DNA from: a virus
Strand: one strand, 5' to 3'
IMG/VR virus record: IMGVR_UViG_3300006789_000193
Span: 1 to 22,426 of that record
Length of the DNA: 22,426 bases
Both the position numbers and the translations under genes were made by a program. Shown in pieces: positions 1 to 22,426 of this stretch. The first letter of the stretch is position 1; each line of letters opens with the position of its first letter. The notes beneath the pieces were generated by a model. That model ran no database searches. It was not told the origin of the DNA and saw only the letters and a program-made list of their open reading frames with translations.

Positions 1-1
1 A

Positions 2-70
2 AAGGCGGCGATTTTGGTACCCGCACTCTATGAGGATTATTCTGTTATCCGCAAACACAATAGTTCATAA
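2..70 (+). CDS. Possible 3' end of an upstream gene (partial)
   Basis: The frame starting at base 2 is open from the window edge to a TAA at 68-70 and would encode a C-terminus ending in IRKHNSS. Another frame is open only to a TGA at 31-33, and a third to a TAG at 102-104, so the assignment is uncertain. No family can be recognised from about 22 residues. If real, the upstream gene ends here and the structured non-coding region follows. Confidence 0.25.
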   Translation, partial: KAAILVPALYEDYSVIRKHNSS

Positions 71-104
71 ACAATATATGTACAGAGAACGAAGCATATA
101 CTAG

Positions 105-317
105 GCCTTGGCAGGTGTGGAGTGAGCAAGAGATCCATTGAACTGTGAGTAAATACCTGCTTCCAATACATGGCTGTACACAATGAATACAGAATGAGGA
201 GGGAACCGTTAGTGGTTCCTTCTGACTGAAACTTCTAAAACAGAATGTAAGAAAGAAAACTTTTCACGAAACAACTCCACGAAGTGGTTGTGAAGTGAAT
301 AGGTCTTTAGACCTTTT
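105..317 (+). other. Structured non-coding leader with several hairpins
   Basis: No credible gene lies between about 105 and 461. Four foldable elements are visible. TTGGCAGGT (108-116) can pair with ACCTG...CCAA (155-165). GGAACC (202-207) pairs with GGTTCC (214-219). A compound hairpin at 263-299 stacks TTCAC/GTGAA, ACAA/TTGT and CCAC/GTGG, separated by a symmetric GAA/GAA internal loop and capped by a GAA loop. AGGTC/GACCT (301-314) is followed by a short T-run. Such density suggests a small RNA, an mRNA leader or a packaging-related site. I recognise no known RNA family. Confidence 0.4.
301..317 (+). terminator. Weak intrinsic terminator candidate
   Basis: A 5-bp stem AGGTC/GACCT with loop TTTA is followed by TTTAT. 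It directly follows the compound hairpin at 263-299 and could end a small transcript before the terminase promoter region. The stem and the T-run are both short, so termination may be inefficient. Confidence 0.3.
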
Positions 318-364
318 ATAATATACATATTCTTTATAATGGTTCAAACGAACTCTCTTAACAG

Positions 365-392
365 TTTACATATGGATTATTATGGGTAAAAT
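365..392 (+). promoter_or_regulatory. Sigma70-like promoter candidate upstream of terS
   Basis: TTTACA (365-370) and TAAAAT (387-392) are separated by 16 bp, about 70 bp before the terS start. Matches to the bacterial consensus are 5/6 and 5/6. AT-rich DNA yields such matches by chance, so this is a candidate only. Confidence 0.35.
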
Positions 393-403
393 ATGTAAGA
401 GAT

Positions 404-411
404 GATAAATA
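404..411 (+). promoter_or_regulatory. GATAAATA box upstream of terS
   Basis: An exact GATAAATA lies about 50 bp upstream of the terS ATG. The same octamer occurs before the portal gene and before the fibre cluster, and on the minus strand inside the antisense operon. It differs by one base from TATAAATA, the T4-type late promoter box. A late-promoter role is inferred from position only. Confidence 0.4.
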
Positions 412-461
412 TTAGCACAACGCATACAGTGGCGATAAAACACTGATTACAGGAGAACGCA

Positions 462-932
462 ATGTCAACTGAACATGAAGACTTTTCAGATAGTAAACCA
501 TTAACGCCAGAGAACCAAAGTGAAGGTTCAAAAGTACACCAAGAAGCCACCAAACATGATAACCATTATCGTGTAAAACAAGTCAAGTACGGCGAAAAAA
601 CTGTCACAGGCAGAGTTATAGGTCGTAACAAAGTGGTTATACCAGAAGAAGAAGTAGCACAACTCAGTCAATATCACTGCACAAACAAAGAAATGGCAGA
701 CTTTTATGGGGTGCCCTTACAAACCTTTATGGACAACTTCCGTGATATCATAGACAAAAACAGAATCATAACAAAACAGAGATTGCGTAAAGCACAATTA
801 GACCTAGCACTCAAAGGCGATAGAGTGATGTTGATATGGCTAGGCAAAAACATACTAGGACAAGCAGAGTCACCTGTAAACGCCGATAACAGTCAAGTGT
901 TGCCATGGCTAGACGAAGACGCCGATAAATAA
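462..932 (+). CDS. terS: Terminase small subunit
   Basis: The small terminase recognises concatemeric phage DNA and hands it to the large subunit for cutting and packaging. The 156-residue product has a charged, disordered N-terminus (1-50). A DNA-binding region follows at about 60-100, where the helix-turn-helix-like stretch TNKEMADFYGVPLQTF is visible. The C-terminal segment GDRVMLIWLGKNILGQ is typical of phage small terminases of this class. Its place directly before terL supports the call. The ATG is preceded by GGAG at a good distance (acaggagaacgcaatg). The stop codon overlaps a GATAAATA octamer at 924-931. Confidence 0.82.
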   Translation: MSTEHEDFSDSKPLTPENQSEGSKVHQEATKHDNHYRVKQVKYGEKTVTGRVIGRNKVVIPEEEVAQLSQYHCTNKEMADFYGVPLQTFMDNFRDIIDKNRIITKQRLRKAQLDLALKGDRVMLIWLGKNILGQAESPVNADNSQVLPWLDEDADK

Positions 933-935
933 CTA

Positions 936-1020
936 TGTTGGTAGCACAACACAACATAACTCTCCACGAGTTAACCGGAATAATGTGTATTACTAATGTG
1001 TAGTCCTCGTGCTACCAACA
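936..1020 (+). ncRNA. Cloverleaf-like RNA or DNA element between terS and terL
   Basis: TGTTGGTAGCAC (936-947) and GTGCTACCAACA (1009-1020) form a perfect 12-bp inverted repeat. The enclosed 61 bases can form three small hairpins: AACTC/GAGTT (958-972), TAAT/ATTA (981-992) and ACTA/TAGT (992-1004). A competing pairing, CACGAG (965-970) with CTCGTG (1006-1011), would break the long stem. It is not a tRNA: I see no T-loop GTTCRA and no 7-base anticodon loop. It could be a packaging recognition site, an RNA processing site, or a structure controlling terL translation. Confidence 0.5.
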
Positions 1021-1045
1021 CTTAAATAGATTTACAGTATACGAT

Positions 1046-2284
1046 ATGAAGTTAACCGAACCACAAAACACTATCTCAAACGATTCTGCACGTTTCCGTG
1101 TGATTGTAGCAGGTAGACGTTTTGGCAAAACATTCTTGGCAATCAACGAATTAGCCAAATTTGCTCGTTATCCTAATCAAAAATGCTTGTACATTGCAAC
1201 CACATACCGCCAAGCAAAAGGTGTGATATGGGATGATTTGTTACAGTTACTATACGAAAAGAATTGGGTAAAGAAAGTAAACCTATCAGACTTAACAGTA
1301 ACACTGGTTAATGATAGTATTATAACCTTGCGTAGTAGTGATAACAATACAGCACTAAGAGGTACTAAGTGGAATTTTATTTCACTCGATGAGTATGCCA
1401 GTATGGATCCTAGCACATGGGACAGTATACTGAGACCCACACTCAGTGATACACAAGGACATGCTATGTTTATTGGTACACCATATGGTAGAAATCACTT
1501 TTGGGATCTATACAATAATGCTAACACTCTAGATGATTGGAGCAGTTATCAGTTTACAACAGCAGAAGGTGGCAATGTAGCACCAGAAGAAATAGAGGCG
1601 GCAAAAAGAGATATGGCAGAAAGAGAATTTAACCAAGAATACAACGCAACATTCGAAGATGCGGCAGGCATAATTGCGTATGCATTCTCACAAGACAATG
1701 TAAAAACAGCACCACAGTTATCGGCTAGCAACGCACTACACATAGGAATGGACTTTAACACAGATAACTTTGCCGCCTGTGTAATGTTACAAGACCGTGA
1801 TACATTACACATAATAGATGAAATCATGCTAATGGGCGCCAGCACCGGCGATATGTGTAAAGAAATACAGCAAAGATATGGCAGGAGAATCATATTTGTA
1901 TATCCAGATGCTTCAGGTTCACAACGTAAGACCAGTGCTAATGGTATGACCGACCACCTTATACTACATAACGCAGGATTCAAAGTGCGTACACCTAAAA
2001 CCAATCCACCAGTTAAAGATGCTATTGCGGCAGTAAATAGTAGGTTGCGTAGTACAAATGGAGACATAAAGTTATTCATAGACCCACAATGCAAGAACAC
2101 ACTGGCCAGTATGAACAAGTTTACATACAAAGAAGGCAGTCGTGTGCCAGATAAGAGTTCAGGATATGATCACATGTTTGACGCACTTAAATATTGTGTA
2201 TGGCAGTTATTCCCATTACAACAAATGCGTTTTGACACATTGCCAGGAAATAGATTTAGAAGTACAGGAGTAAGACCAAGATGA
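1046..2284 (+). CDS. terL: Terminase large subunit (ATPase and nuclease)
   Basis: This is the motor that pumps DNA into the prohead and cuts the concatemer. The 412-residue product is full length for the family. The ATPase domain carries Walker A VAGRRFGKT (21-29), Walker B FISLDE (111-116, with D115 and E116) and the coupling motif GTP (144-146). The RNase H-like nuclease domain starts at GMDFN (D236). Further candidate metal-binding acids are D288 in YPDAS and D375/D379 in YDHMFDALKY. No Shine-Dalgarno motif precedes the ATG, and the cloverleaf-like element ends 25 bp upstream, which may matter for translation. The stop TGA overlaps the next gene's ATG (ATGA). Confidence 0.95.
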   Translation: MKLTEPQNTISNDSARFRVIVAGRRFGKTFLAINELAKFARYPNQKCLYIATTYRQAKGVIWDDLLQLLYEKNWVKKVNLSDLTVTLVNDSIITLRSSDNNTALRGTKWNFISLDEYASMDPSTWDSILRPTLSDTQGHAMFIGTPYGRNHFWDLYNNANTLDDWSSYQFTTAEGGNVAPEEIEAAKRDMAEREFNQEYNATFEDAAGIIAYAFSQDNVKTAPQLSASNALHIGMDFNTDNFAACVMLQDRDTLHIIDEIMLMGASTGDMCKEIQQRYGRRIIFVYPDASGSQRKTSANGMTDHLILHNAGFKVRTPKTNPPVKDAIAAVNSRLRSTNGDIKLFIDPQCKNTLASMNKFTYKEGSRVPDKSSGYDHMFDALKYCVWQLFPLQQMRFDTLPGNRFRSTGVRPR

Positions 2285-2550
2285 TAAAAGGTGATAAAAG
2301 TTGGGCAAATGCCCCAGATAAAAAAACATCGCAATGGAAGAAGAATGAAAGCACAATTGCCAAGAATCCATTCTTAAGAGCACAACGTGATAAGACACAA
2401 GGATTTGCACCTAGTAGTGCTATCAATTCAGGTGTGCCAGATGAACAGTACAAAGAGAATTACGACAAGATCAAGTGGAGCAAAGATAAAAAAGATAAGC
2501 CAAAGTTCCGCACAAAGATTAATGGAAAATACGTAGATGAAGAAGAGTAA
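2281..2550 (+). CDS. Small lysine-rich protein downstream of terL
   Basis: The 89-residue product is strongly charged and probably disordered, rich in Lys, Asp and Asn (KKTSQWKKNE near the N-terminus, KWSKDKKDKPKF near 65-76, acidic end DEEE). No domain or membrane segment is visible. It starts on an ATGA overlap with terL, so translation is probably coupled. It overlaps the next small gene by 14 bp. Its position suggests a packaging or head accessory role, but the function is unknown. Confidence 0.65.
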   Translation: MIKGDKSWANAPDKKTSQWKKNESTIAKNPFLRAQRDKTQGFAPSSAINSGVPDEQYKENYDKIKWSKDKKDKPKFRTKINGKYVDEEE

Positions 2551-2746
2551 TTGGCACGGTGGCAAAGGCAGTACACCACGCACTAACACAAACAGTAAAC
2601 AATATCAAGATAACTGGGATGCCATATTCGGTAAGAAAGTAAAAGAAGTAAATGAAAAGTTTTCAAAGTCACTTGAAAGTTTAGATGATACAGAATATCC
2701 GCAAAGAACAAACATCAACAATAGAAACAATGACACCATTAAGTAA
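2537..2746 (+). CDS. Small hydrophilic protein, unknown function
   Basis: The 69-residue product is polar and rich in Asn, Lys and Ser. It has a short motif QYQDNWDAIFGKK (23-35) and no membrane segment. The motif DNWDAIFGK loosely echoes EQYKENYDKIKW in the preceding protein (both have Q-Y-x-x-N-[YW]-D-x-I), so the two small genes may be distant duplicates or bind the same partner. The start overlaps the end of the previous gene; only a weak GGAAAA ribosome site precedes it. The function is not recognised. Confidence 0.55.
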   Translation: MKKSNWHGGKGSTPRTNTNSKQYQDNWDAIFGKKVKEVNEKFSKSLESLDDTEYPQRTNINNRNNDTIK

Positions 2747-3212
2747 AGACTTAGAGCATTTATATAATGCTACATGGGTAGTCATTGATCCATGGAGTAC
2801 TCAATTTGAGCCACGTGAAGATATCAATAAAGATATTTTAACACATGTCAACAATGTAAACAATTACTATGCTCATATGATACATGAATACATACAAACG
2901 CATAACATAAACAATGTTTATATTGTAAACAATCATGGCATACCTACGCATCCATTGTTTGAAAATTACCCTAAATGGCCTGGCAATCTGCCAGAAGGTG
3001 ATTATGTGTTTGTAGGCTATCACAGTGGTATTTGTATCAAGCAGAAAGGCACTGAAAAACTTAAAGCAACAAAAGATTACATACCATGGGTAAAAGCAGA
3101 CTTAACGTGTACCTTACCAACCAATTGGCTTACAGCAGAAACAGTAGAACAACTACAATACACGTTCAAAGATCATATGGATATGTATGGGGATAGAGTA
3201 AATATAATATAG
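2730..3212 (+). CDS. Isochorismatase-like (cysteine hydrolase fold) protein, tentative
   Basis: The 160-residue product has a strand WVVIDPW (16-22) with Asp20, and a strand-turn VFVGYHSGIC (93-102) with Cys102. These are placed like the catalytic Asp and the Cys after a glycine turn in isochorismatase-family hydrolases. A Lys equivalent (perhaps K82 in YPKWPG) is uncertain, and no substrate can be proposed. An in-frame ATG at 2685 would add 15 residues but overlap the previous gene by 62 bp, so the ATG at 2730 is preferred. Neither start has a strong ribosome site. The gene lies within the packaging cluster, an odd place for a metabolic enzyme. Confidence 0.45.
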   Translation: MTPLSKDLEHLYNATWVVIDPWSTQFEPREDINKDILTHVNNVNNYYAHMIHEYIQTHNINNVYIVNNHGIPTHPLFENYPKWPGNLPEGDYVFVGYHSGICIKQKGTEKLKATKDYIPWVKADLTCTLPTNWLTAETVEQLQYTFKDHMDMYGDRVNII

Positions 3213-3220
3213 GAGACGAT

Positions 3221-3662: not shown

Positions 3663-3819
3663 AAAAATAAGTACAGCATTTAACACAATGACACTCACAG
3701 GCCTTAGTCTGCTATGGGGTCAAATGTTAGGTATGCTGAATCCATACTTCACCATACTCACAGTATTGTGTATTATAGTAGGATATGGTTCAGAAGTGCG
3801 TATTAAGAAGGAATATTAG
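3646..3819 (+). CDS. Two-helix small membrane protein, holin candidate
   Basis: The 57-residue product has two hydrophobic stretches, about residues 15-31 (MTLTGLSLLWGQMLGML) and 33-48 (PYFTILTVLCIIVGYG). They are separated by Asn-Pro and followed by a charged tail VRIKKEY. This size and topology resemble class II holins, which open the inner membrane at lysis. The ribosome site is AGGAG (3635-3639), 6 bp before the ATG. Against a holin: no endolysin is visible in the window, and small membrane proteins serve many roles. Its 3' end overlaps the end of a convergent minus-strand gene by 17 bp, with no terminator between them. Confidence 0.55.
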   Translation: MKLPTEKISTAFNTMTLTGLSLLWGQMLGMLNPYFTILTVLCIIVGYGSEVRIKKEY

Positions 3820-4042
3820 GTTTATTCTTAAAATCCACAGTTAGGCCTTTAGCAGTATTGCGCCACTTAAACATAGCATTAAACCAAAATAACAGATCTT
3901 GATCAAGATGTATGCTCTTTTGCACTATGTCTTTGAGTTTTGCCTGTTTCTTATCTGTGGGATCTTTTAAATAATTATTTACACATTGCACAAAGTATCT
4001 CTTAAACTCTATGTGCGGATCAGGTATATCATTACTCTTCAT
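3803..4042 (-). CDS. Last gene of antisense operon, unknown 79-residue protein
   Basis: The product is soluble, mostly helical and rich in Lys and Phe (FKRYFVQCVNNYL, then LDQDLLFWFNAMFKWRN). Its ATG lies inside the stop region of the preceding small gene (11-bp overlap), indicating coupled translation. The gene overlaps the convergent holin candidate by 17 bp at the 3' ends. No known family is recognised. Its place in a separately promoted small-gene operon suggests an early or host-takeover protein. Confidence 0.6.
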   Translation of the reverse strand: MKSNDIPDPHIEFKRYFVQCVNNYLKDPTDKKQAKLKDIVQKSIHLDQDLLFWFNAMFKWRNTAKGLTVDFKNKPNIPS

Positions 4043-4184
4043 TACGTGGCTTTATGGTATTGTATGTTGGTTTAGGCACTACAGGTAGTGTGAGTTGCAA
4101 ATACCTTCTATATGCTTGAGTTTTAGGCTTAGGCAACAAATGACCATTAATCCATTCTTTGGTTCTAGGCTTTCTTGTTCTCAT
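4032..4184 (-). CDS. Very small basic protein of the antisense operon
   Basis: The minus strand from ATG at 4184 to TAA at 4032-4034 encodes 50 residues: a basic start (MRTRKPRTKEW), then LPKPKTQAYRRYLQLTLPVVPKPTYNTIKP. It overlaps the end of the double-HTH gene by 20 bp and the start of the 79-residue gene by 11 bp, filling an otherwise empty gap in a tightly packed operon. This is the main evidence that it is real. There is no clear ribosome site, so translation is probably coupled. The function is unknown. Confidence 0.5.
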   Translation of the reverse strand: MRTRKPRTKEWINGHLLPKPKTQAYRRYLQLTLPVVPKPTYNTIKPRNEE

Positions 4185-4551
4185 CGTATTGATCCATATA
4201 TGTGCTAGCCATTTTGATGTAAAACATTTTTGGGTTCACTGTCCAGTGTTCGCCACGTTCGTTAAGTATTTTACCTTGTAATTCTGGTTTTTCGAAGTTG
4301 CTGTAATATATGTCACCATATAAGTATTCACGTCTTGCAACTGTGATAGGATGTATGCCTAAGTCTATTGCAAGTTGCCCCAGTGTTTTGCCATACTTGG
4401 TTTCAAATTTAGTCGGTTTATTTCTTCTTTGAAACGGTGTGCCAAAGTTACGCACACGCATACGGATTGCTTCTGGTGTGACATTCTCCATTTCTGCTAA
4501 GTCATTGCAGGCTATTCCCCATTTTTCTTTAAAATCTACTCTTTGTTTCAT
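4165..4551 (-). CDS. Double helix-turn-helix DNA-binding protein (putative regulator)
   Basis: The 128-residue product shows two helix-turn-helix-like units: residues about 13-37 (ACNDLAEMENVTPEAIRMRV) and about 54-79 (TLGQLAIDLGIHPITVARRE). Both have the [LA]-x-[DE]-hydrophobic ... V/I-T/H-P pattern of recognition helices. The start at 4551 is preferred over an upstream in-frame ATG at 4599, because AAGGAG lies 6 bp before it and its ATG overlaps the previous stop (TAATG). It probably binds DNA, as a regulator of the early-to-late switch or of the packaging genes. It could also be a terS-like specificity protein. The target is unknown. Confidence 0.6.
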   Translation of the reverse strand: MKQRVDFKEKWGIACNDLAEMENVTPEAIRMRVRNFGTPFQRRNKPTKFETKYGKTLGQLAIDLGIHPITVARREYLYGDIYYSNFEKPELQGKILNERGEHWTVNPKMFYIKMASTYMDQYDENKKA

Positions 4552-4964
4552 TATATCTCCTTGAAAATTAAATCTGGCGCAAAGATAGTCTCTGGCCATT
4601 TGTTAGCAATCAATAACTTGTTTATGTTATCGAAAGCACCTAAAAGTTCTTCTATGTTTTTGATTTGGTATACTGTAAAGTCTTTGTCTTTGGTTTTCTT
4701 ATGTTGTTTCAGCATGCCGCCTAATGCGGCAGTTATACCTATATACTTGCTTCTTTTATAGTATTTGCCTTTGCCTAAACACTTGAACTCTGTGGTAACA
4801 AAAGTGTTTAACTCTGGGTATTCGTGTTGTGCTTCTGCTATGATGTATAGTGCGTCTTGCAATATGTTTAGGAGTAATTGCTTGTCGTCTTTGGACATTT
4901 TACAAAATACAGTATTGATCTCTGACTTTGTAAATGCTTTACTCCAGTTTATTGTGTAACTCAT
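4551..4964 (-). CDS. Unknown 137-residue protein of the antisense operon
   Basis: The product is soluble and mixed alpha/beta: a helical N-terminus (DDKQLLLNILQDALYIIAEAQHEYPEL), a strand-rich basic middle (FKCLGKGKYYKRSKYIGIT, 61-79) and a helical C-terminus (IEELLGAFDNINKLLIA). No known family is recognised. The ribosome site AAGGAG sits 7 bp before the ATG. A GATAAATA octamer lies 25 bp upstream on the same strand. Its last codons contain the ribosome site of the next gene, so the two are translationally coupled. Confidence 0.65.
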   Translation of the reverse strand: MSYTINWSKAFTKSEINTVFCKMSKDDKQLLLNILQDALYIIAEAQHEYPELNTFVTTEFKCLGKGKYYKRSKYIGITAALGGMLKQHKKTKDKDFTVYQIKNIEELLGAFDNINKLLIANKWPETIFAPDLIFKEI

Positions 4965-5294: not shown

Positions 5295-5471
5295 ACTCTG
5301 TTTTACATCTAGAGTAGGTTTGTTAGGACAAGCCACATTTACTTAGTCACAGGGGTATGCAACTGTAAATAATATTGAAGTAAACGCATAAGGCGTTCAC
5401 TCATATAACTAAGTGTGTTTGCTTTTATTCATTGAATAAAAGTATTGAAAGGCCCCCAACTGGGGGTTTTT
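5294..5471 (+). ncRNA. Candidate structured RNA ending in an intrinsic terminator
   Basis: This gene-free stretch holds consecutive hairpins. TACTCT/AGAGTA is at 5294-5316. GGTTTGT/ACAAGCC (loop TAGG) is at 5317-5334. ACTTAGT (5341-5347) pairs with ACTAAGT (5408-5414) and encloses AACGC/GCGTT (5383-5397). A perfect 9-bp CTTTTATTC/GAATAAAAG lies at 5422-5442. Last comes a CCCCC/GGGGG terminator with five T. Most of the sequence can be paired, and both ends carry terminators, as expected of a stand-alone RNA or a leader with attenuation. No RNA family is recognised, and no clear promoter is visible on the plus strand. On the minus strand it would end at the 5262-5294 terminator, so the strand is not certain. 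Confidence 0.5.
5453..5471 (+). terminator. Strong intrinsic terminator before the portal operon
   Basis: CCCCC, loop AACT, GGGGG and TTTTT form a textbook rho-independent terminator. The stem can extend outwards through two G-T and three A-T pairs. It lies 13 bp before the GATAAATA box of the head operon, so it separates upstream transcription from the late operon. Confidence 0.85.
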
Positions 5472-5483
5472 CATATATATTTT

Positions 5484-5491
5484 GATAAATA
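5484..5491 (+). promoter_or_regulatory. GATAAATA box of the head operon, candidate late promoter
   Basis: GATAAATA sits between a strong terminator and the portal ribosome site. For a T4-type late promoter the start would lie at about 5497-5500, giving a leader of about 30 bases. A perfect 14-bp palindrome CTTGTTATAACAAG (5494-5507) covers the predicted start and could be an operator. Confidence 0.45.
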
Positions 5492-5528
5492 CTCTTGTTA
5501 TAACAAGCAATATAAACCGGAGATATCT

Positions 5529-7217
5529 TTGAGTGATTATCTAAACTATATCACAGGTACCCACGCATTGTACGACAAGTACTATGCCGATTGGAGACTG
5601 TGTATCAATTCATACCATGGTGGGCCAGAATATAAAGATGCCCATTATCTAAGAGCATATCAAGTAGACTTTAACACCCCGAGTGAAATGGTTAACACAT
5701 ATGAAACAGCAGATGACGGTTCATATGTGGCAAAATTCAAAGCCAAAGTAGTACAGGGTTCCACGTACAACGAAACTGTGAGAGGCCAAAACAAATTGTC
5801 GGGCAGTTTCTATGAAGAAAAGTTAGACTCAGTGCCATGGTATAACTATGTTAAGTTAATCACTAACGAATACAACTCGATCTTATTCCGTAATCCACCA
5901 CAAAGAATGCTAGGTGAAAACGCAGATATGTCAGAGTTTATAGAAAATGTAGACGGTGAAGGCAATTCATTAAGTGAATTCATGAGTCAGGTAGATGTGC
6001 TCACTACTGTATATGGAGTTTTACATATTGGATGCTACAAGCCAGTTGGATCAGATATACCTAAATTCAAAATACATACACCTGAAGATGTAACAAATTG
6101 GAGTTATCAATATAATCCAGATGGCAGTTTAACATTAGACAGCATGGTAATTAGGGTTGAATATTCAGACTATCATAGTGTGTACAGAGTATTAACCAGA
6201 GATTATATCGATACCATATTTGTTAAAAATGATAGTTCAGATGATGATTATCTACCACCTGTACAATCAGATGATTTAGAAATGATAGAAGAAGGCACAT
6301 ATCGTATAAGGCAAGAAAATGAATTAGGTTACATACCAGTAACAACAGTATACCAAAATGTAAAAGTGTATAACAACGTTGGTTCAACAATTATTATGGA
6401 TGTTGCACAAATACAACGTAGTGTATACGGCGACAATGCTGAAATATATAGTGCTATCACATATGGTGCTCATCCTACACTCATAGTAGATGAAAACACC
6501 GACGCACTTAATGACGGTCAAGTAAACGCAGAGCCAGGTGGCATAGTGCGAGTGCAAGGTGGCCTAACAGGTGATCAACAAAATTATGTATATCAGTTTG
6601 CTTCACCTAGTCTAGATGCTATCACAGAAATACGTGATTTGATAGACAACAAAATAAACAAATTAACACAAATTGCTATGTTAAGATCAGAAGACTTAAT
6701 CAAAGCAAGTAACAGTGGCGAACAAATAGAAATATTCGACGATAAACTTGCCGCACTGATCCGTAAGAAAGCCACAAACTTAGAAAATACAGAAAGCAAA
6801 CTGTTTGATATCTATTTTGATTGGACAAACCAACAAAAGCCAGATGATTTCCGTGTAAGTTACAGCAGACAATACAACAAAAGAGCATTAGAGGCAGAAT
6901 TAAAAGAAATAGATGTTTTAATCAATGTTGTAAACAAATATGAAGAAATGTTTGGTAATGGTGACATAGAAGCACCAAGTTACAACACAGAAGCAGAAGC
7001 AATAGCAGAAGCAAATAGATTAGGAGGAACTGGCGCACACGAGCACGTTCAAGAAGATGGTAGTAGTATATACATGCCATTTGAAACACATGAATTATAT
7101 GAGGCGGCTATCGGACAGACAGCCTCGGAACCAGATTTTAAAAACAATATGCGAGACAAGATACACATGAGACTTGAAGAGTTAATGTCTAGTACATCAA
7201 CTAACAAAGGTCTCTAA
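5529..7217 (+). CDS. Portal protein
   Basis: The portal is the dodecameric ring at the capsid vertex through which DNA passes and to which the tail is joined. The 562-residue product has portal features: an N-terminal wing (VPWYNYVKLITNEYNSILFRNPPQ), a long stem helix region (DAITEIRDLIDNKINKLTQIA) and a helical clip/crown part (YNKRALEAELKEIDVLINVVNKYEEM). It lies directly upstream of scaffold and capsid genes. The frame is open from 5445, but that part contains the terminator and the GATAAATA box. The TTG at 5529, with GGAG 6 bp upstream, is therefore the likely start, and no in-frame ATG exists near it. Family placement (SPP1-like versus other portals) is not certain. Confidence 0.82.
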   Translation: MSDYLNYITGTHALYDKYYADWRLCINSYHGGPEYKDAHYLRAYQVDFNTPSEMVNTYETADDGSYVAKFKAKVVQGSTYNETVRGQNKLSGSFYEEKLDSVPWYNYVKLITNEYNSILFRNPPQRMLGENADMSEFIENVDGEGNSLSEFMSQVDVLTTVYGVLHIGCYKPVGSDIPKFKIHTPEDVTNWSYQYNPDGSLTLDSMVIRVEYSDYHSVYRVLTRDYIDTIFVKNDSSDDDYLPPVQSDDLEMIEEGTYRIRQENELGYIPVTTVYQNVKVYNNVGSTIIMDVAQIQRSVYGDNAEIYSAITYGAHPTLIVDENTDALNDGQVNAEPGGIVRVQGGLTGDQQNYVYQFASPSLDAITEIRDLIDNKINKLTQIAMLRSEDLIKASNSGEQIEIFDDKLAALIRKKATNLENTESKLFDIYFDWTNQQKPDDFRVSYSRQYNKRALEAELKEIDVLINVVNKYEEMFGNGDIEAPSYNTEAEAIAEANRLGGTGAHEHVQEDGSSIYMPFETHELYEAAIGQTASEPDFKNNMRDKIHMRLEELMSSTSTNKGL

Positions 7218-8150: not shown

Positions 8151-9116
8151 ATGGCAACAACAACAGGAACAGTTGCAGAGTTATATAGTAATGTGGTTGC
8201 AGATTTAATACCTTATTTTCAAAATGCAGTATTACTTCCAAACCCGGCTATTTTAGTTCACAACTATAACTTAGAAGGTGCAATCGGTAACCAAATGCAA
8301 ATACCGGTAACAAACAGTTGGCCAGCATCAAACAGTGAAATCTCAGACAATGAAGATATCATTAGTGGGTCAACAGCAGGTACGGATTTCGATCCTACAT
8401 CAGTTACTTTATCAGTAACAAAGAAAGGAGCAGGTACAACTGTTTCAGAAGAAGCATTAGAAGATGGTGGCATGGCTACTGTGTCTAACGCAGTCGTAAC
8501 AAGACTTTCAAGTTCAATTGCTCAATCAACTGACATCGAAGGTTTCAGAGTTGCACTATCAGGAGCAACTGCGGCATTAACAGACATCTCAGGCATCAAC
8601 GTACCAAACGATGGTTTTGCTAACACAGCCTTAACCACAGGTGATTTAGGTGTTGTAATGAGTGCTGAAGGACTAGCATACGCAAGTAAGAGAGAACCAG
8701 TTGTTAAAATGTTTAACGACGTTAAGAATGACGACCATCAAATGGTTGCCACAGTAAGAAACGGTTTTGCTCAGTTACGTAGAAGTGCTACTAACCCTAA
8801 CTTCATTAGATGTTTTGCTACTGAAAGTGGTGTTGGTTCATCAAATGCTAACTTAAACACAATTTCAAAATCAGTTGCTAACTTAAGAAGTGACAATGCG
8901 CCTACAACAGGTGGATTCTACTGGGCATTTATTAACCCAGCACAAGAACTTGCTTTAGCACAAGAACTTAATGGTGTTGGAGCATCAAGTGGATCAATCG
9001 GTTCAGTTGCTCAAGACTTAGCAAATGATGCCTTGTTACAAGGTTTAATCACGCAGGCAATTGGTTGCCAATTTGTTAGAAGTAATAACCTTCCAGAAGG
9101 CCTATTAACGGCGTAA
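8151..9116 (+). CDS. Major capsid protein
   Basis: This is the shell-forming protein, made in the highest amounts. The 321-residue product has a strand-rich N-terminal region (QMQIPVTNSW, then DFDPTSVTLSVTKKGAGTTVSEEAL) and a helical middle (VVTRLSSSIAQSTDIEGFR), as in HK97-fold coat proteins. It follows the scaffold gene and has a strong ribosome site (CAGGAGAAAAATTATG). Codons are more uniform than in neighbouring genes, as expected for high expression. The exact coat subfamily cannot be settled without a search. Confidence 0.82.
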   Translation: MATTTGTVAELYSNVVADLIPYFQNAVLLPNPAILVHNYNLEGAIGNQMQIPVTNSWPASNSEISDNEDIISGSTAGTDFDPTSVTLSVTKKGAGTTVSEEALEDGGMATVSNAVVTRLSSSIAQSTDIEGFRVALSGATAALTDISGINVPNDGFANTALTTGDLGVVMSAEGLAYASKREPVVKMFNDVKNDDHQMVATVRNGFAQLRRSATNPNFIRCFATESGVGSSNANLNTISKSVANLRSDNAPTTGGFYWAFINPAQELALAQELNGVGASSGSIGSVAQDLANDALLQGLITQAIGCQFVRSNNLPEGLLTA

Positions 9117-11555: not shown

Positions 11556-11884
11556 ATGATGATGCTTTTAACAAGCAATTAAGAGACATAAAAACTTATG
11601 TCGATGAAACCTTGGTTAAAGAAATGGTCAAAGAATATCGAAAGCAAACACCTATAGATGGTGGTAATGCAAGGCGTAAAACAATTCGCAAACGTAATTC
11701 AGTAATTGGTGATTATGCATACGCAGGAGTACTAGATCAAGGATTATATCCTAATCCTCCTGCAAACGGCACTGGTAAAACTAGAAGTGGTTACAGCACA
11801 CAGGCACCTAAAGGCATGGCTGAACCAACAATAAAACATATAGAAGATGAACTAGATAAGTTCATTAAACGGAGTAACAAATAA
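11531..11884 (+). CDS. HK97 gp10-like tail completion protein
   Basis: The 117-residue product contains TPIDGGNARR (40-49), close to the TPxDTGxLR signature of HK97 gp10-like minor tail/tail completion proteins, followed by a basic region and GVLDQGLYPNPPANGTG. Such proteins act at the tail-head joining end. Usually the gene precedes the tail tube; here it lies between the chaperones and the tape measure. It overlaps the chaperone frame by 25 bp and the tape measure start by 1 bp (TAATG). Confidence 0.6.
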   Translation: MAKIKVTVDDDAFNKQLRDIKTYVDETLVKEMVKEYRKQTPIDGGNARRKTIRKRNSVIGDYAYAGVLDQGLYPNPPANGTGKTRSGYSTQAPKGMAEPTIKHIEDELDKFIKRSNK

Positions 11885-13773
11885 TGGCAGAAATCAAAAC
11901 TAAACTGACCCTAGACAATAGTCAGTTTAACAGAAATGCTAAAGAAAGTACTAGATTAACATCTGGTCTAAAAGCAGGCCTTAATGGATTAGGCAATGCG
12001 GCTAAGTTTGCGGCAGTAACAGTAACAGCCGCCACAACTGCATTAACATTCCTTGTTGCTAGAAGTGTCCAAACAATTGATCGTCTGGGTAAAGTAAGTA
12101 AAACAACAGGTTTTGCCGCAGAAACATTACAAAAATTCCAATTTGCCGCAGAACAAAGTGGTGTTAGTGCGGATCAAGCCGCAGTAGCATTAAGACGTTT
12201 CAGTAGAAGATTTGGTGAAGCCGCAAAAGGCACAGGTGAGTTATTACCTGCACTAAAAAGGTTAGGTATAGAAACAAGAAACGTCGATGGTCAAGTTAAA
12301 AGTGCTGAAGAAATACTATTTGAATTTGCAGATGGTATTAAGAATGCCAAGAATGAATCAGACGCACTTAGTTTAGCCTTTAAGGCGTTTGACAGTGAAG
12401 GTGCAGAATTAGTAGAAACATTAAGAGATGGTAGTGATGGATTAAGAGCATTCTTCGATGAAGCAGAAGCATTAGGCTTTATATTATCAACAAACAGCAT
12501 ATCAGGTGTAGAAGCATTTGCTGATGAATTTAATCGATTACAAGCAATTGTAGGTGGTTTAATTAACCAATTTACAGCCGCACTTGCACCTACATTAGAA
12601 GCAGTAACAAGAAAATTTAGAGGCTTTATTCAACAACAAATTAAAGCCGCAGGTGGTTTAGAAGAGTTTGGTGCATTTTTAAAAGACAAATTTATTGACA
12701 TATTATCAACAGTTATATTAGCATTAGAGGGTGTATTCAACACTTTAGTTGATATTGGTAATGCTATTGTTAATGTTATTCGATTATTTGGATCATTATT
12801 TGGTGTTGAGTTGTTTCCTTCATTAGCCAAAGAAGGCGAAGAATTAGTTAGTATATTTGATTTATTTGACAAATTAAAAGGTATGGGGGGAATAATAGAT
12901 ACAGTAATGCTTCCTCCGGCATTAGTTGCACTTATAAATTTTGCAAAAGAGGCAGGCCCAGAGTTATTATCTTTACAAGGCAGTCTAGAGTCTATAGGAG
13001 AAGGAAAGTTATTTAAGAAATCAACTAGTGGCCAAAGTCTAGTTGATCTATTATTAGGTACCAAAGAAGATGCCAAGAACAAAGTTGAAGACATAATAGA
13101 AGAAATAGTTGTTGTAGGTGAAAAAATACCTAAATCACTAGGTGATCGAGTACTCGACGCATTATTTGGCGTTAATAGAGTTGATGAATTCTTTATAGCA
13201 TATGAAAATACTGGTGCTAAAACATTAGAAAAACTAGGTGCTATAGCACAATTAGTATTTGGCGATGAATTGATGAATAAGATCAAAGATGCATTTGCTA
13301 ACAGTGATGTGGGTGACTTTACTAAGACACTGGCAGATGGCATGGTCAAATCAGCACAGATGTTTGAAGATGCCTTAGCAGAAGCATTTGTTAATGGTAA
13401 AGCAGACTTCAGTGACCTAGCAGACTTTATAAAGATAACACTAGCAAAAGCATTTATACAAAAAACAATAACAGGACCATTGATGATGTTATTTGGCTTA
13501 GCAGGTGGTGGACCAGCAAAAGCAGGACAACCATACATAGTTGGTGAAGAAGGACCAGAACTGTTTATACCTAAAAACTCAGGTACAGTTATACCTAATG
13601 ATATCACAGAGTCATTAGCAGGTGGGCCAGGTATTGGGGGTGGTGGTACAAGTGTCACATATAACATACAAGCCGTAGACGCACCAAGTTTCCAACAGTT
13701 AGTAGCAAGTGATCCACAGTTTATATATGCTGTAACCCAAGCAGGTGCTAGAACAATACCAGGGAGTAGATAA
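11884..13773 (+). CDS. Tail tape measure protein
   Basis: It sets tail length and is ejected ahead of the DNA. The 629-residue product has an N-terminal core helical domain (FQFAAEQSGVSADQAAVALR near 80-105) and hydrophobic segments at about 37-58 (FAAVTVTAATTALTFLVA) and about 268-305 (LSTVILALEGVFNTLVDIGN and onward). The Gly-rich C-terminus has the tape-measure signature YIVGEEGPELFIPKNSGTVI. At about 0.15 nm per residue the tail would be near 94 nm. No peptidase or lysozyme motif is visible. Start and stop overlap both neighbours (TAATG), so translation is coupled. Confidence 0.9.
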   Translation: MAEIKTKLTLDNSQFNRNAKESTRLTSGLKAGLNGLGNAAKFAAVTVTAATTALTFLVARSVQTIDRLGKVSKTTGFAAETLQKFQFAAEQSGVSADQAAVALRRFSRRFGEAAKGTGELLPALKRLGIETRNVDGQVKSAEEILFEFADGIKNAKNESDALSLAFKAFDSEGAELVETLRDGSDGLRAFFDEAEALGFILSTNSISGVEAFADEFNRLQAIVGGLINQFTAALAPTLEAVTRKFRGFIQQQIKAAGGLEEFGAFLKDKFIDILSTVILALEGVFNTLVDIGNAIVNVIRLFGSLFGVELFPSLAKEGEELVSIFDLFDKLKGMGGIIDTVMLPPALVALINFAKEAGPELLSLQGSLESIGEGKLFKKSTSGQSLVDLLLGTKEDAKNKVEDIIEEIVVVGEKIPKSLGDRVLDALFGVNRVDEFFIAYENTGAKTLEKLGAIAQLVFGDELMNKIKDAFANSDVGDFTKTLADGMVKSAQMFEDALAEAFVNGKADFSDLADFIKITLAKAFIQKTITGPLMMLFGLAGGGPAKAGQPYIVGEEGPELFIPKNSGTVIPNDITESLAGGPGIGGGGTSVTYNIQAVDAPSFQQLVASDPQFIYAVTQAGARTIPGSR

Positions 13774-15580: not shown

Positions 15581-17932
15581 GTGGCAGTATTTACAGCAAT
15601 AGGAACAGCAATAGCAACAGCAATAGGTGGCGCATTGGTCACAGCAACAGGACTTACACTATTAGGTAGTGTTGTAGCAGGTGTTATTGCGGCAGGCTTG
15701 GCATTCGGTACAGCAAAACTTTTAGGAGTATTTGATGTTCCGGACGTAGGCGCCATGGGCAGAGCCAATGGCAGTAAAGTACAGGTGGCCCCGAGTACTG
15801 ACAACAGGATCGGTGTGGCTTATGGCCGTAATTTCATGAGTGGTCCAATAACAGATGTTGCTATATCAAATCAAAACAACACTATGCACTATTGTATCAC
15901 ACTCAGTGAATTAAGTGACGGCCATGATGTAGGTTCATACACACTTAATCAGATCTTTTGGGGTGATAGAAAACTAAACTTCTCAGGAGCAAATGTAGTC
16001 AGTTATACAGATCCAAATGCCACAACCACAGAAGATTGGTCAAACAAAATCCGTATAAGAGTATATGCTGGTGATACTACCAGTGCTAAACAGATATTCC
16101 CAACATCAGGTGCCGTAAATGCCACAACAATGATGCCACACTGGAATGTGTTTGGTACAAGTCATTACACTATGGAAGGATTAGTATTTGCAATGATTGA
16201 AGTAGATTATGATGCTGAAAATGGTCTTACAGGACTAGGTAGTATGACATTTGATATTACTAATAGCAAAGACAATCCAGGTGAAGTATTGTTCGATTAT
16301 TTGAAATCAAGTCGATACGGTGCTGGATTAGCCAATAGTGATATAGACATAACAAGTATACTAGGCACAGCAAATACACAGATGAAAGGTTATTGTGATG
16401 AACAAATTACTTATACACCTAACACTGGTGGTAGTAGCACTATAGACAGATATCAAATCAATGGTTATTTGAGTACTTTTGATAGTTGTATGGATAACAT
16501 AGACAAAATATGTAGAAATGCCGCAACATACTTTACATTTGATGGAAAGCAAGGCAAATTTGCGGCTATTCCAAACAGACCATATAGTAGCAGTGAATTA
16601 AGTTCAGCATTTGTTCTCAATGATGACAATATAGTTAGTAAGATATCTGTTAGTAGTACAGAATTATATCAACAACTTAATAGTATAACAGTAGAGTTTG
16701 CTGATCAAAACAGAAAAGATCAAACAAATACCATATTAGTAGAAACACCAAGTGGAGATAGAAACACAGGCGAACCAGATAATAATTTAGATTACAGAGC
16801 AGAGTTGGTTAACAATAATATACATGCAGAACAACTAGGAAACATTGATCTAAATCAAAGTAGAAAAGGTATGGTTGTAGAATGCACCAGTGATTTCTCA
16901 GGACTACAAATAGACGCCGGTGATGTTGTAAAACTAACTAATAGTGATTATGGATTTAGTGACAAGTTATTTCGTGTAATGAAAAACACAGAAGCATTAG
17001 GTCAAGATGGTATGATATTGTGTAATTTATTGCTGTTAGAGTATGACTCAAGTGTATACACAGAACCAACTATTACAGAAAGTGAAGAAGAAGATGATCC
17101 TATTGATATACCTGTAATACCACCTATACCTCCAATTATACCTCCAATTGTGTTTAAAAACATAATCCCAAATGTGCCAAGCAAAAGTGTAACAGGCACT
17201 GGTACAAGTTGTGTGTGTACAGTATTTAAATCATTGCCAGATACATATACAACAGTATTTGTATCAAGTAGTACACCTGATTTTGTCATAGGCGATACAG
17301 TAACATTAAGTGGAGCCAACTTAGGAGGCATAGATACTATACATGATTGCACATTCACTGTTGATGCAGTCAGTGGTGGACTAATTACTAACCCAGTAGG
17401 AAACATATCAGGTACAGCACTTGTATATGATCCCGACAAATGGGGCGGACAAATTCCAACAGCACCGTTGGCCAACTTGGCAGTAGGCACACAGATCGAA
17501 GATCAACCAGCAGCCAACTTAGCATTCAGTAACACAGATGTTGTTAAAGATATATTTACACCTAGGGAACTAGACTTTAAATTAAGCCTAGATGGTTTAG
17601 AACCAGGAGACTACAGTTTTGTAGCAACTGGCACGCCAGTAGGAGCAATACCAGCCAGTGGTGTAGCAAACTTTAGTTTGAGAGCAAATGTTGTGCTTGA
17701 AGATGTACAAGGTGGCTTTACAGCAACAGAATTTGGTTCAACACTTAACAATAGTGCCGAAATACCTACTAACATGATAGCAGTACAAAAATTAACTATA
17801 CCTGCAGATTTAAGCACAGGTAATGTGGTATTGCGTGGTAAAAACACAATGGACACAAACAGTGGCGGACAAATAGGTTTTACTAATTTAAAATATGACT
17901 GGATAAGAATCAATAAAGGAGACATATTCTAA
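15581..17932 (+). CDS. Tail hub / tip attachment protein (J-like)
   Basis: The central tail hub closes the tube and anchors fibres. The 783-residue product starts at GTG with AGGAG 8 bp before it. Residues 4-50 are a hydrophobic Ala/Gly-rich segment (IGGALVTATGLTLLGSVVAG), as in lambda gpI-type tip proteins, followed by hub domains (NRIGVAYGRNFMSGPITDVA; VLFDYLKSSRYGAGL; CDEQITYTPNTGG). Residues about 505-525 form an acidic then Pro/Ile linker (EEEDDPIDIPVIPPIPPIIP). Beyond it lie beta-rich domains, likely fibre- or receptor-facing. The stop overlaps the next start (TAATG). Confidence 0.78.
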   Translation: MAVFTAIGTAIATAIGGALVTATGLTLLGSVVAGVIAAGLAFGTAKLLGVFDVPDVGAMGRANGSKVQVAPSTDNRIGVAYGRNFMSGPITDVAISNQNNTMHYCITLSELSDGHDVGSYTLNQIFWGDRKLNFSGANVVSYTDPNATTTEDWSNKIRIRVYAGDTTSAKQIFPTSGAVNATTMMPHWNVFGTSHYTMEGLVFAMIEVDYDAENGLTGLGSMTFDITNSKDNPGEVLFDYLKSSRYGAGLANSDIDITSILGTANTQMKGYCDEQITYTPNTGGSSTIDRYQINGYLSTFDSCMDNIDKICRNAATYFTFDGKQGKFAAIPNRPYSSSELSSAFVLNDDNIVSKISVSSTELYQQLNSITVEFADQNRKDQTNTILVETPSGDRNTGEPDNNLDYRAELVNNNIHAEQLGNIDLNQSRKGMVVECTSDFSGLQIDAGDVVKLTNSDYGFSDKLFRVMKNTEALGQDGMILCNLLLLEYDSSVYTEPTITESEEEDDPIDIPVIPPIPPIIPPIVFKNIIPNVPSKSVTGTGTSCVCTVFKSLPDTYTTVFVSSSTPDFVIGDTVTLSGANLGGIDTIHDCTFTVDAVSGGLITNPVGNISGTALVYDPDKWGGQIPTAPLANLAVGTQIEDQPAANLAFSNTDVVKDIFTPRELDFKLSLDGLEPGDYSFVATGTPVGAIPASGVANFSLRANVVLEDVQGGFTATEFGSTLNNSAEIPTNMIAVQKLTIPADLSTGNVVLRGKNTMDTNSGGQIGFTNLKYDWIRINKGDIF

Positions 17933-18333: not shown

Positions 18334-18336
18334 TTC

Positions 18337-18344: not shown

Positions 18345-18361
18345 TACTAGTAATAAAAATG

Positions 18362-18389
18362 GCTATATTGCCTCAGTGATATAGCAATA
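18362..18389 (+). promoter_or_regulatory. Overlapping alternative hairpins in the fibre leader
   Basis: GCTATAT (362-368) pairs with ATATAGC (379-385), positions given as 18xxx. TATTGC (366-371) pairs with GCAATA (384-389). The stems share bases and cannot form together. They end 6 bp before the CAGGAG ribosome site, so a switch could affect translation of the 167-residue gene. Confidence 0.35.
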
Positions 18390-18405
18390 CCCTTCAGGAG
18401 TAGTT

Positions 18406-18909: not shown

Positions 18910-18917
18910 GAGACTAA

Positions 18918-21900
18918 ATGGCTAACATAATAGTATCAGTATCAGAACCAACTATAAACGTTGATTCTACCAATAATACAGTAAACGTATCAACAACTAC
19001 TTCAAATGTATCAGTAAGTAACATATCAGTTGTTTCTAACTCACAGATACGACAAGGTATAAGTGTAAGTAATCTTGGTGGCTTTGGTAATTTAGCATAT
19101 GATAATAGTGCATCAAGTAATGGTGTAATTCAATATACAGGTGTTAGTAACTCTGATATATACAGCACAATTACTACAACTAATGTTAGTGGTTATGGTA
19201 ATATTGCTTTTGATCAAACAAATGGCGATATAGAATACACTGGTGTTGCTCAATCAGACATTAGAGGCAGTATTTCTAATGTAGGTGCTATAAATTATGA
19301 TACAGGCACCGGTGAAATTGGTGTCGATGGAGCCGCAATATTTACAGCAAGAAGCACAGACGATTTAAGTGAAGGTGTAACAAATTTATACTTTTCAAAT
19401 ACCAGAGTTAGAAGTAACATAAGTGTTACTGATGCAGGAGGAGATGGAAGTTTAGCATATGACAACACTACAGGTGTATTTACATACACAGGACCAAGTC
19501 AAGCAGAAGTATTAGCACATTTTTCAAATGTATCACCGATAAATTTAGAAGCAAATGGCCAAATTAGTGTTGACGAAAGTGCTATATTTTCAGGCAAGAC
19601 TACTGATGATTTAACAGAAGGAACAACAAATTTATATTTCACACCAGCAAGAGTAAGAAGCAATATAAGTCTTACTACAAATTCACCAAGTGGTAACGGT
19701 TCATTAACATATGATAATTCAACAGGTGTATTTGACTTTACACCTGCCGCAACAAACAGTTTAACAAATGCTGATGTAAAAACGTTTATAGAAGCAAATG
19801 GCCTAGACGCAAGTGCTAATTTAACTACAACAGCAAATACCAGTGCCGCACATGGTACATTCACAGGCGCAACCAGTTTAACAGCAACAGGTAATGTCAG
19901 TATAGGCGGTAACCTAGATGTAACAGGTAATATAAATTCAGAAACAGTAGTAGACTTATTTGTAGAAGACCGTAACATAACACTACAATATGGTACAGTA
20001 GGTTCACCAAGTGCTAATTCACAGGTATTTGTAGACAGAGGATCAAGTGCTAACACATATATCAAATGGGATGAAGGTTCAGATAGTTGGAAATTCTCTA
20101 ATGATGGTAGCACAGAATACAAAATACCAACAAGCACTAGTGACCTAGCAGAAGGTACTAACTTATACTTCACAGCCGCAAGAGCAAGAGGTAACATTAG
20201 TGTAACAGACTCAGGTGGCGACGGCAGTTTAGCATATGATTCAGGTACAGGTGTAATTACTTACACAGGCCCAAGTGCCGCCGAAACAAGAGCCCATATT
20301 AGTGTTACTGACGCAGGTGGGTTAGGTAGTGCCGCATATGACTCAGGTACAGGTGTAATAACATACACAGGACCAGCAGACAGTGATGTAAGAGGCTTAG
20401 TTAGCACAACAACAACAAGTGCCAGTGGAGGTGGATCATTAGCATATGATTCAGGTACAGGTGTATTTACATTTGCTCCAGCAGACTTGTCAAGTACAGT
20501 AAGTTTAACAGATTTTAGTGTCACAACAGGCACAACTACAAGTGGAAACAGTTCATTGGCATATGACAATACCTCAGGTGTTTTCACATTCAAACCAGTA
20601 GATATAGAAGTATTAACAGGTGTAGACTATGGTAGTACACCAACTGGTAATCCCACTGGAACAATCGATTACAAAACAAGATCAATTAGTAATGTATCCG
20701 CAATACAAGGTAGTAATACTGGTAGTTTTCTAGAACTAGCAGGTAACATTACTTCATATGCCGCCGGCGCCCCACACTATATCCATTATGATTATGTTCG
20801 TAGCAAACTGAGTATGTTAACCAACAGTATAGCATTTGATGCCGGTACAGCAGGAACAGATGACGGTATTATTAATTTAGCAAATGGTGTTCTATCCAGT
20901 TCAGTATTTACAGCATTACAATCAGATAATGCTCAAGCAAACATCGATAATTTTGGTAACATAAATGCTACTTACTTCCATGGTGATGGATCAAATATCA
21001 CAAATGTTACCAGTGATGTAACATCAGAAAACATAGTAAGAGTGTGTATAGCCGGTGAAGACATAGCAAAAGGCGATGCTGTATACATAAGTGGTGGCAC
21101 AGGAGATAATCCAGAAGTATCTAAAGCAGATGCCGATGATGCCGCAAAGATGCCGGCATTTGGTATTGCCAAAGAAGCAATTAGCAGTAGTTCAACAGGT
21201 AACGTTGTAATATATGGTGAAATAACCAGTTATGATACCACATCATTTACAACAGGAGACAGTTTATTTGTCAGCACAACACCAGGTAGTTTAACAAACT
21301 CAGCACCAACAGGCGAAAGCAGTCTGTTACAAAAGATTGGTAAAGTCATCAAAGGTGGTAGTCCTGGTGGTAAGATTACTGTTACAGGTGCTGGTAGAAC
21401 AAACGCAACACCTAACTTAAATGATGGTAATATCTTTATTGGTAATGCCTCAAATCAAGCCACAACGGCAGTTTTTGCAGACGAATTATTAGCATATGAT
21501 GGTAATTCATCAATAAGTAATTTAACTGCTTTAAGTAATGTGTTTATGCCTAGTACTGTAGGTTCCCAAAATAGTGGAAGAAGTGCTAGAGTACAACCAG
21601 TATTTTTTAATGGTTCTAATGTAGAACCGCAAAGTTCAATACCTTTAACACGATATGGATTGAATAAACAAAGTTTAAGTGGTTATCAAGTTTATGGTCC
21701 AGCCATGGATGCCAGTCATGATGTTGAAATGCAAGACAAACTTGTACCAATCTGGACATTTAAAACAAGTGATAATATTACTACTGATACCACAGATGCA
21801 TGGGGTATGTATTTTGAATGGCCTGATGGAAATTCTTCGGGTACAGGTAATCTACTGCTAGCCAAACCAAGTACTTATTCCGGCGGCTTTCTGAATAACA

Positions 21901-22426
21901 CTCAATTTGTTGTAGATTACCACCAAACAGTTGAGGGACGACTTACAGCAAATTCAGATCTTTATGCAGAAAGTAATGTTAATTTAAAAGGCAATGTATA
22001 TGTTTCAGCCACAGGTGGCTCATTAGATGCTAATTTATTTGTTACTGAATCTACTGATGGTAATGGCGCAAACGTTAGGAATGTAAAATCATTGGAGGTA
22101 GATGCAATAAGTGGGCGTAGTGCTTTTGGAAACACAATTGCAATATCTACCAGTAATTTAACAATCAATAGTAACATAATTAATAACACAACAACCATGG
22201 CTGATACTGATTATACATCAATAATCACTGAACAAAGAGGACATTATAACCAAACTGTATATGGTACACCTTTTTCAGATTTAGGTATAACTCAGAGTGC
22301 AAGTGCTAACACTGAATTAAGTGCTACTTATGTAGGTGGTGTGTTAGCAGGACCAAGTGGCGATAACTTCCCAGCAGATGGTACAATAACAACAACAGCA
22401 GGCAGTAATGTAGTACAATTAACAGG
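18918..22426 (+). CDS. Giant repeat-containing tail fibre protein (partial, runs off window)
   Basis: The frame is open from ATG 18918 (AGGAG 4 bp upstream) to the edge, at least 1169 residues. Residues 1-45 are Val/Ser/Asn-rich. From about 50 to 560 it carries tandem motifs GSLAYDxxTGVxTYTGP (about eight copies) and DLxEGTxNLYFTxxRxRxNIS (three copies), known from marine phage fibres. A non-repetitive domain at about 705-835 (EDIAKGDAVYISGGTGDN ... GNVVIYGEITSYDTTSFTTG) looks like a beta-barrel module. Later parts are beta-rich and rich in Ser/Asn/Thr, probably the shaft near the receptor-binding tip. The tip and any self-cleaving chaperone domain lie outside the window. Confidence 0.85.
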   Translation, partial: MANIIVSVSEPTINVDSTNNTVNVSTTTSNVSVSNISVVSNSQIRQGISVSNLGGFGNLAYDNSASSNGVIQYTGVSNSDIYSTITTTNVSGYGNIAFDQTNGDIEYTGVAQSDIRGSISNVGAINYDTGTGEIGVDGAAIFTARSTDDLSEGVTNLYFSNTRVRSNISVTDAGGDGSLAYDNTTGVFTYTGPSQAEVLAHFSNVSPINLEANGQISVDESAIFSGKTTDDLTEGTTNLYFTPARVRSNISLTTNSPSGNGSLTYDNSTGVFDFTPAATNSLTNADVKTFIEANGLDASANLTTTANTSAAHGTFTGATSLTATGNVSIGGNLDVTGNINSETVVDLFVEDRNITLQYGTVGSPSANSQVFVDRGSSANTYIKWDEGSDSWKFSNDGSTEYKIPTSTSDLAEGTNLYFTAARARGNISVTDSGGDGSLAYDSGTGVITYTGPSAAETRAHISVTDAGGLGSAAYDSGTGVITYTGPADSDVRGLVSTTTTSASGGGSLAYDSGTGVFTFAPADLSSTVSLTDFSVTTGTTTSGNSSLAYDNTSGVFTFKPVDIEVLTGVDYGSTPTGNPTGTIDYKTRSISNVSAIQGSNTGSFLELAGNITSYAAGAPHYIHYDYVRSKLSMLTNSIAFDAGTAGTDDGIINLANGVLSSSVFTALQSDNAQANIDNFGNINATYFHGDGSNITNVTSDVTSENIVRVCIAGEDIAKGDAVYISGGTGDNPEVSKADADDAAKMPAFGIAKEAISSSSTGNVVIYGEITSYDTTSFTTGDSLFVSTTPGSLTNSAPTGESSLLQKIGKVIKGGSPGGKITVTGAGRTNATPNLNDGNIFIGNASNQATTAVFADELLAYDGNSSISNLTALSNVFMPSTVGSQNSGRSARVQPVFFNGSNVEPQSSIPLTRYGLNKQSLSGYQVYGPAMDASHDVEMQDKLVPIWTFKTSDNITTDTTDAWGMYFEWPDGNSSGTGNLLLAKPSTYSGGFLNNTQFVVDYHQTVEGRLTANSDLYAESNVNLKGNVYVSATGGSLDANLFVTESTDGNGANVRNVKSLEVDAISGRSAFGNTIAISTSNLTINSNIINNTTTMADTDYTSIITEQRGHYNQTVYGTPFSDLGITQSASANTELSATYVGGVLAGPSGDNFPADGTITTTAGSNVVQLT
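19075..20600 (+). repeat. Tandem repeat array inside the tail fibre gene
   Basis: About eight GSLAYD-type units lie near 19078, 19190, 19437, 19690, 20213, 20317, 20428 and 20540. Three DLxEGTxNLYFT units lie near 19363, 19608 and 20140. Units at 20213-20480 are nearly identical at the DNA level (tagcatatgattcaggtac and close variants), pointing to recent duplication, while those before 19450 have diverged more. Confidence 0.75.

Follow-up and report, generated by a model that had tools for sequence, protein, structure and literature searches.

Complete absence of MGCK from the window

Which agent is able to remove a short DNA word from the genome of a virus without leaving a single copy? This question is raised by the IMG/VR virus record IMGVR_UViG_3300006789_000193, whose positions 1 to 22,426 (22,426 bases, the whole stretch analysed, in the following called the window) do not contain the degenerate, self-complementary site MGCK, i.e., the tetramers AGCT, AGCG, CGCT, and CGCG. 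A first-pass annotation, made by eye from the sequence, had reported this gap, and an exact count over all 22,426 nt confirmed zero copies of each of the four tetramers. The comparison with Markov and codon-shuffled nulls, which had been proposed there as a check, was carried out as well. From the trinucleotide flanks and from a dinucleotide Markov model, 99 and 143 MGCK sites are expected, respectively, so that the initial rough estimate of 100–200 was right. Dinucleotide shuffles of the window (n = 300) contained on average 141 sites and never fewer than 106, and synonymous-codon permutation of 19.8 kb of predicted genes (n = 2000) gave 107.8 ± 7.2 sites with a minimum of 82. Chance is thereby ruled out as the cause, and MGCK displays the strong under-representation against both composition and codon nulls that characterizes an avoided site.

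The boundary of the motif is exact. The other 12 NGCN tetramers all occur in the window (among them AGCA 221, CGCA 78, GGCG 54, TGCT 111, TGCA 66, and GGCC 30 times), which implies that both flanking bases are needed. Among the 24 self-complementary motifs consisting of two central bases flanked by twofold degenerate positions, MGCK was the only one missing, the next-lowest being RGCY at 0.62 of its expectation. The codon choice within the window genes follows the same rule without exception, as had already been described for alanine: where the preceding codon ends in A or C, the alanine codons are GCA (204) or GCC (48) and never GCT or GCG, both of which are used following a codon ending in G or T (97 and 20 times, respectively).

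MGCK is missing from the genes of both strands as well as from the 2.65 kb outside the assigned genes, and its avoidance is strand-symmetric and independent of the reading frame. Since the word is avoided in every frame and also in non-coding DNA, selection on proteins or codons cannot be the cause, which supports the DNA-level cause initially proposed. The fact that the count is an absolute zero and not merely low points to a nearly lethal effect of each single site.

Extent of the gap among related phages

The group to which the window belongs consists of small marine viruses of bacteria. MGCK was absent from 12 of 12 IMG/VR contigs whose terminases are 77–100% similar to that of the window, and the same applies to G059, with a terminase only 61% identical, and to L313, L319, L321, L322, and L342 (records G059–G064 are those behind L283–L286, L297, and L298). 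A set of 13 contigs of the group with little redundancy, which includes the window and totals 209 kb, contained 0 MGCK sites where 840–1218 are expected; the count in related phages suggested at the outset thus gave a group-wide zero. The 13 contigs include a probably complete genome of about 28 kb, G004 (L024/L025), the 28,264 bases of which carry a 98-base end repeat indicating a genome length of about 28.2 kb. This genome contains structural genes, sugar-modifying enzymes, and small genes of unassigned function; no replication gene was recognized among its tested proteins. As a side observation, no DNA replication genes are annotated in the related phage DSL-LC06 and none stood out in the open reading frame lists of G020 and G046. 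The window itself is contained at 99.99% identity in a longer IMG/VR record, G001 (L018–L020, IMGVR_UViG_3300037635_000677; 47.9 kb), which comprises about 1.75 genome lengths from two strains 85–95% alike and is probably a chimeric assembly.

A search with the tail protein for unrelated phages of the same host revealed no MGCK-free phage from another family. Its matches were MGCK-bearing relatives and additional phages of the window group that lack MGCK (L319, L321, and L322).

Two other words were found to be rare. TGCA is nearly absent from some MGCK-free members (observed/expected: G006 (L028) 6/135, L003 0/50, L006 1/34, L012 1/31) and amounts to 66/144 in the window. GCWGC is close to zero in the window (1 versus 20 expected), in its group, and in the Pelagibacter phages HTVC111P, HTVC202P, and HTVC026P.

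Other absolute gaps in the wider family

More distant relatives show absolute gaps of their own, namely for GTAC, CTAG, CATG, TGCA, AGCC/GGCT, ACGT, GATC, GGCC, GCGC, and the degenerate word YCGR. The avoided words are 4 bp long and mostly palindromic, and AGCT, GTAC, CTAG, CATG, TGCA, GATC, GGCC, GCGC, and ACGT are classic recognition sites of Type II restriction enzymes. YCGR (CCGA, CCGG, TCGA, and TCGG) is completely absent from G026, G030, G032, G037, G045, and G047 (L217–L222, L227/L228, L244, and L235) and represents a second degenerate, self-complementary gap resembling that of MGCK. The highest number per genome was seen in G020 (L211/L212, 30.8 kb), from which the six palindromes TGCA, CATG, AGCT, GTAC, ACGT, and GCGC are missing together. 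In DSL-LC06 (L032, OR003941, 1-29811), the non-palindromic pair AGCC/GGCT occurs 0 times versus 109 expected, a gap common to more than 12 related contigs.

The sets of missing words differ even between close relatives. ACGT occurs 0 times in G003 (L022/L023) versus 56 times in G004, both of them MGCK-free and 83% identical at the nucleotide level, which reflects either a recent additional purge or a recent relaxation. Similarly, GTAC is found 0 times in G049 versus 39 times in G051 (84% identity), and CTAG 15 times in G024 versus 0 times in its 92–93% identical relatives. Such switching is as expected of changing host strains and is most simply explained by changing host restriction systems. 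For GTAC and AGCT, the two words most often avoided in the wider family, no accessory phage gene was common to all avoiders (48 and 60 contigs, respectively), which leaves a host cause as the simplest common explanation. When genes were tested for association with the avoided words other than MGCK, mostly clade-linked and structural genes were returned.

Restriction-site avoidance as the probable cause

Considering the completeness of the gap, its group-wide extent, its sharp boundary, the codon choice, and the analogous gaps in relatives, we regard the absence of MGCK as probably resulting from restriction-site avoidance directed against an MGCK-cutting enzyme of the host. The agent is almost certainly a DNA-cutting enzyme, and its source would probably be the host. 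Of the two options first put forward, that of a sequence-specific restriction enzyme has gained support, as the gap is common to a group with terminase identities down to 61% and as other restriction-like zeros exist in relatives.

On this reading, the hosts of these phages would be protected by a defence that cleaves DNA at specific sequences. Its most likely form would be an orthodox Type II restriction-modification system recognizing MGCK or a combination of an AGCT enzyme with an MGCG/CGCK enzyme. A phage genome bearing an MGCK site would be cut on entry, so that mutations removing sites would be favoured and mutations creating them eliminated. Under long exposure the number of sites would reach zero and stay there, on both strands and in genic as well as intergenic DNA.

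Several observations weigh against host restriction. A host search in a genome collection returned only distant terminases (amino acid identity of at most 47%) in mixed metagenome-assembled genomes, and a search of the literature turned up no MGCK enzyme. Moreover, MGCK is zero in the whole diverse group while other gaps fluctuate, a pattern that a phage-encoded determinant would also give. Finally, a small protein of the window, P137, tracks the absence of MGCK among near relatives.

One specificity or two

In the nearest phages outside the group (G060, G061, G062, G064, and G009), AGCT occurs 0 times or once (observed/expected: G060 0/94, G061 0/29, G062 1/114, G064 0/14), yet AGCG and CGCG are retained at roughly one fifth to two thirds of their expectation. 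AGCG/CGCT and CGCG together account for 50 sites in G060 and for 24 sites versus about 90 expected in G062. The absence of MGCK is therefore an extension of the absence of AGCT, and it could be due to a single MGCK enzyme or to two enzymes, acting on AGCT and MGCG, respectively; both possibilities fit the data. In the latter case, the wider family would share exposure to an AGCT enzyme, the window group alone would in addition encounter an MGCG/CGCK activity, and the two together would resemble MGCK. Besides the sisters G060, G061, G062, and G064, the many more distant relatives in which AGCT alone is zero speak for such a combination. On the other hand, every member of the window group lacks the three parts together, none contains CGCG while lacking AGCG, and a single degenerate site describes the gap more briefly. 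We consider two specificities a real possibility without placing it first; being a variant of either a host or a phage origin, it shares its probability with these.

Search for a phage-encoded determinant

The second option put forward initially was a phage-encoded nuclease of the kind known from Chlorella viruses. Enzymes of the CviJI type recognize RGCY, which like MGCK is a degenerate, self-complementary 4-bp site centred on GC. They differ in the avoided flanks, which are M and K here instead of R and Y, and RGCY cutting is excluded by the 122 RGCY sites of the window (AGCC 52, GGCC 30, and GGCT 40). In addition, searches of Pfam, PHROGs, and PADLOC, limited to recognizable folds, identified no nuclease or methyltransferase family among the tested proteins of the window and of its relative G004. 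The proposed endonuclease search thus turned up no known nuclease in either genome, and together with the lack of an accessory gene common to the GTAC or AGCT avoiders this speaks against the Chlorella-type option.

Three further candidates were dismissed. DSL-LC06 (L032:7322-8109) and 14–15 related contigs encode a PacI-like nuclease next to an HNH nuclease; this pair does not occur in the MGCK-free group, and highly similar pairs accompany differing gaps (YCGR 12 in G036, 0 in G031). A helix-turn-helix-like protein and a 79-aa protein of the window are both present in MGCK-bearing sisters, and their trees are not sorted by MGCK.

P137 was examined as the remaining candidate. Its close form is present in every MGCK-free genome of sufficient length (the window, G003, G004, G006, L003–L006, L012, L313, G059, G066, L322, and L342), with identities among these carriers down to 33% at the amino acid level, and is lacking from all MGCK-retaining near sisters (G060, G061, G062, G063, G064, G009, and L044). 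Contigs that lack both MGCK and P137 (G002, L002, and L319) are partial, and for G002 and L002 a longer-reaching close relative carries the gene. No other non-structural family matches the absence of MGCK as fully, and the gene occupies two different genome positions among its carriers. G059 combines P137 with the absence of MGCK, although the terminase and portal trees place it within MGCK-bearing sisters (in the portal tree as the sister of G009, support 100/99).

Based on these co-occurrences, the phage might itself encode an MGCK-specific nuclease without a methyltransferase that destroys host or competitor DNA, with P137 or a partner carrying the specificity. However, the co-occurrences are evolutionarily few, namely two, and as the tail of G059 is window-like, G059 may simply share the host of the window group; a host switch explains the tracking of MGCK absence by P137 equally well. 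Distant members of the P137 family are also found in MGCK-retaining phages (L335, L324, L336/L337, L330, and weakly G035), and the avoidance of AGCT in sisters lacking P137 means that this part of the gap is not explained by P137 there. The structure model of P137 (pLDDT 87.5) yielded no fold match in the PDB, its best viral fold matches being uncharacterized proteins, and neither a nuclease family nor a PDB sequence was matched. We therefore consider a phage-encoded cause an unlikely though serious alternative, and rather doubtful the narrower proposal that P137 and its relatives constitute such a methyltransferase-free nuclease or supply its specificity, the phage's own genome being kept free of the word.

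Mutational loss without selection, by deamination of methylated cytosine at MGCK or by biased replication, is very improbable. Deamination of methylcytosine is a known route to rare words, but such decay leaves residues, and 0 sites versus 840–1218 expected lies far beyond it. In addition, none of the tested phage proteins was identified as a methyltransferase, and the alignment of G059 to its sisters shows CGCA in place of CGCT and AGCA in place of AGCG and hence not only C-to-T and G-to-A changes.

Gene content of the window

Judged from its gene content, the window appears to be part of a small siphovirus-type phage genome. The genes for large terminase, portal, head protein, tape measure, a GNAT enzyme, a J-like tail protein, and a long fibre-like protein follow each other in this order, and the features with coordinates are compiled in Table 1. 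The closest annotated large terminases found by tblastn are those of DSL-LC06 (44% amino acid identity) and Pelagibacter phage HTVC111P (43%). For the J-like tail protein, the best annotated match is in Methylophilaceae phage P19250A (31% over 437 aa). The full open reading frame of the helix-turn-helix-like protein encodes 144 aa (4165-4599), and its structure model is of low confidence (pLDDT 54) and too poor for a fold search.

Table 1. Annotated features of the 22,426-base window.
Feature	Position	Strand	Basis or remark
Pre-terminase conserved phage gene, probable small terminase	462..932	+	In 20/22 contigs compared; related DSL-LC06 gene annotated as DNA-packaging protein
Large terminase	1046..2284	+	phrog_2 (E=2e-41); tblastn; tree
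79-aa conserved gene, minus-strand module	3803..4042	-	Tree not sorted by MGCK absence
50-aa conserved gene, minus-strand module	4032..4184	-	Shared by phages with and without MGCK
Helix-turn-helix-like protein, 128 aa from likely start	4165..4551	-	In MGCK-free and MGCK-bearing sisters
P137, 137 aa, fold without known match	4551..4964	-	Close form restricted to MGCK-free phages; candidate for a determinant or for a marker of the host
Portal protein	5445..7217	+	phrog_145 (E=1.5e-37); tree
Major head protein	8151..9116	+	phrog_544 (E=3e-05)
Tape measure protein	11884..13773	+	phrog_9483 (E=4e-46)
Host-specificity protein J-like tail protein	15581..17932	+	phrog_31 (E=4e-24)

Relation to known systems and implications

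In roughly one in ten viral genomes, sites have been described as completely or almost completely lost, nearly always those of orthodox Type II systems (Rusinov et al., 2018, PMC6286503). The absence of MGCK resembles these cases in being a loss of a short Type II-like site from double-stranded DNA phage genomes. It differs from them in that the site is a degenerate 4-bp word covering four tetramers to which no enzyme could be assigned, that the gap spans a whole phage group instead of single genomes, and that neighbouring phages switch among several absolute gaps. Phages like DSL-LC06 (OR003941, PMC10611076) share with the window group a size of about 30 kb, a related terminase, the lack of annotated replication genes, and an absolute gap of their own, but the word they avoid is AGCC/GGCT instead, and the window group lacks their nuclease pair. 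A literature search, whose scope did not extend to REBASE, found no enzyme or methyltransferase acting on MGCK, and a keyword look-up in metaepigenome papers returned AGCT, GATC, GCWGC, CGCG, and other motifs, with no MGCK among the passages retrieved. Complete elimination of restriction sites is thus a known phage strategy, and the MGCK record is an unusually complete, group-wide instance of this adaptation, whose specificity looks new within a comparison that did not include REBASE.

The MGCK gap provides a strong readout, obtained from sequence alone, of a DNA-cutting specificity in uncultured marine bacteria, in which an enzyme acting on MGCK should exist. Beyond this, the phage family constitutes a natural experiment, in which close genomes have switched among absolute gaps (ACGT, GTAC, CTAG, TGCA, YCGR, and AGCC). 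These switches allow the speed at which phages purge and regain sites to be measured, and the missing words may permit such phages to be assigned to their hosts.

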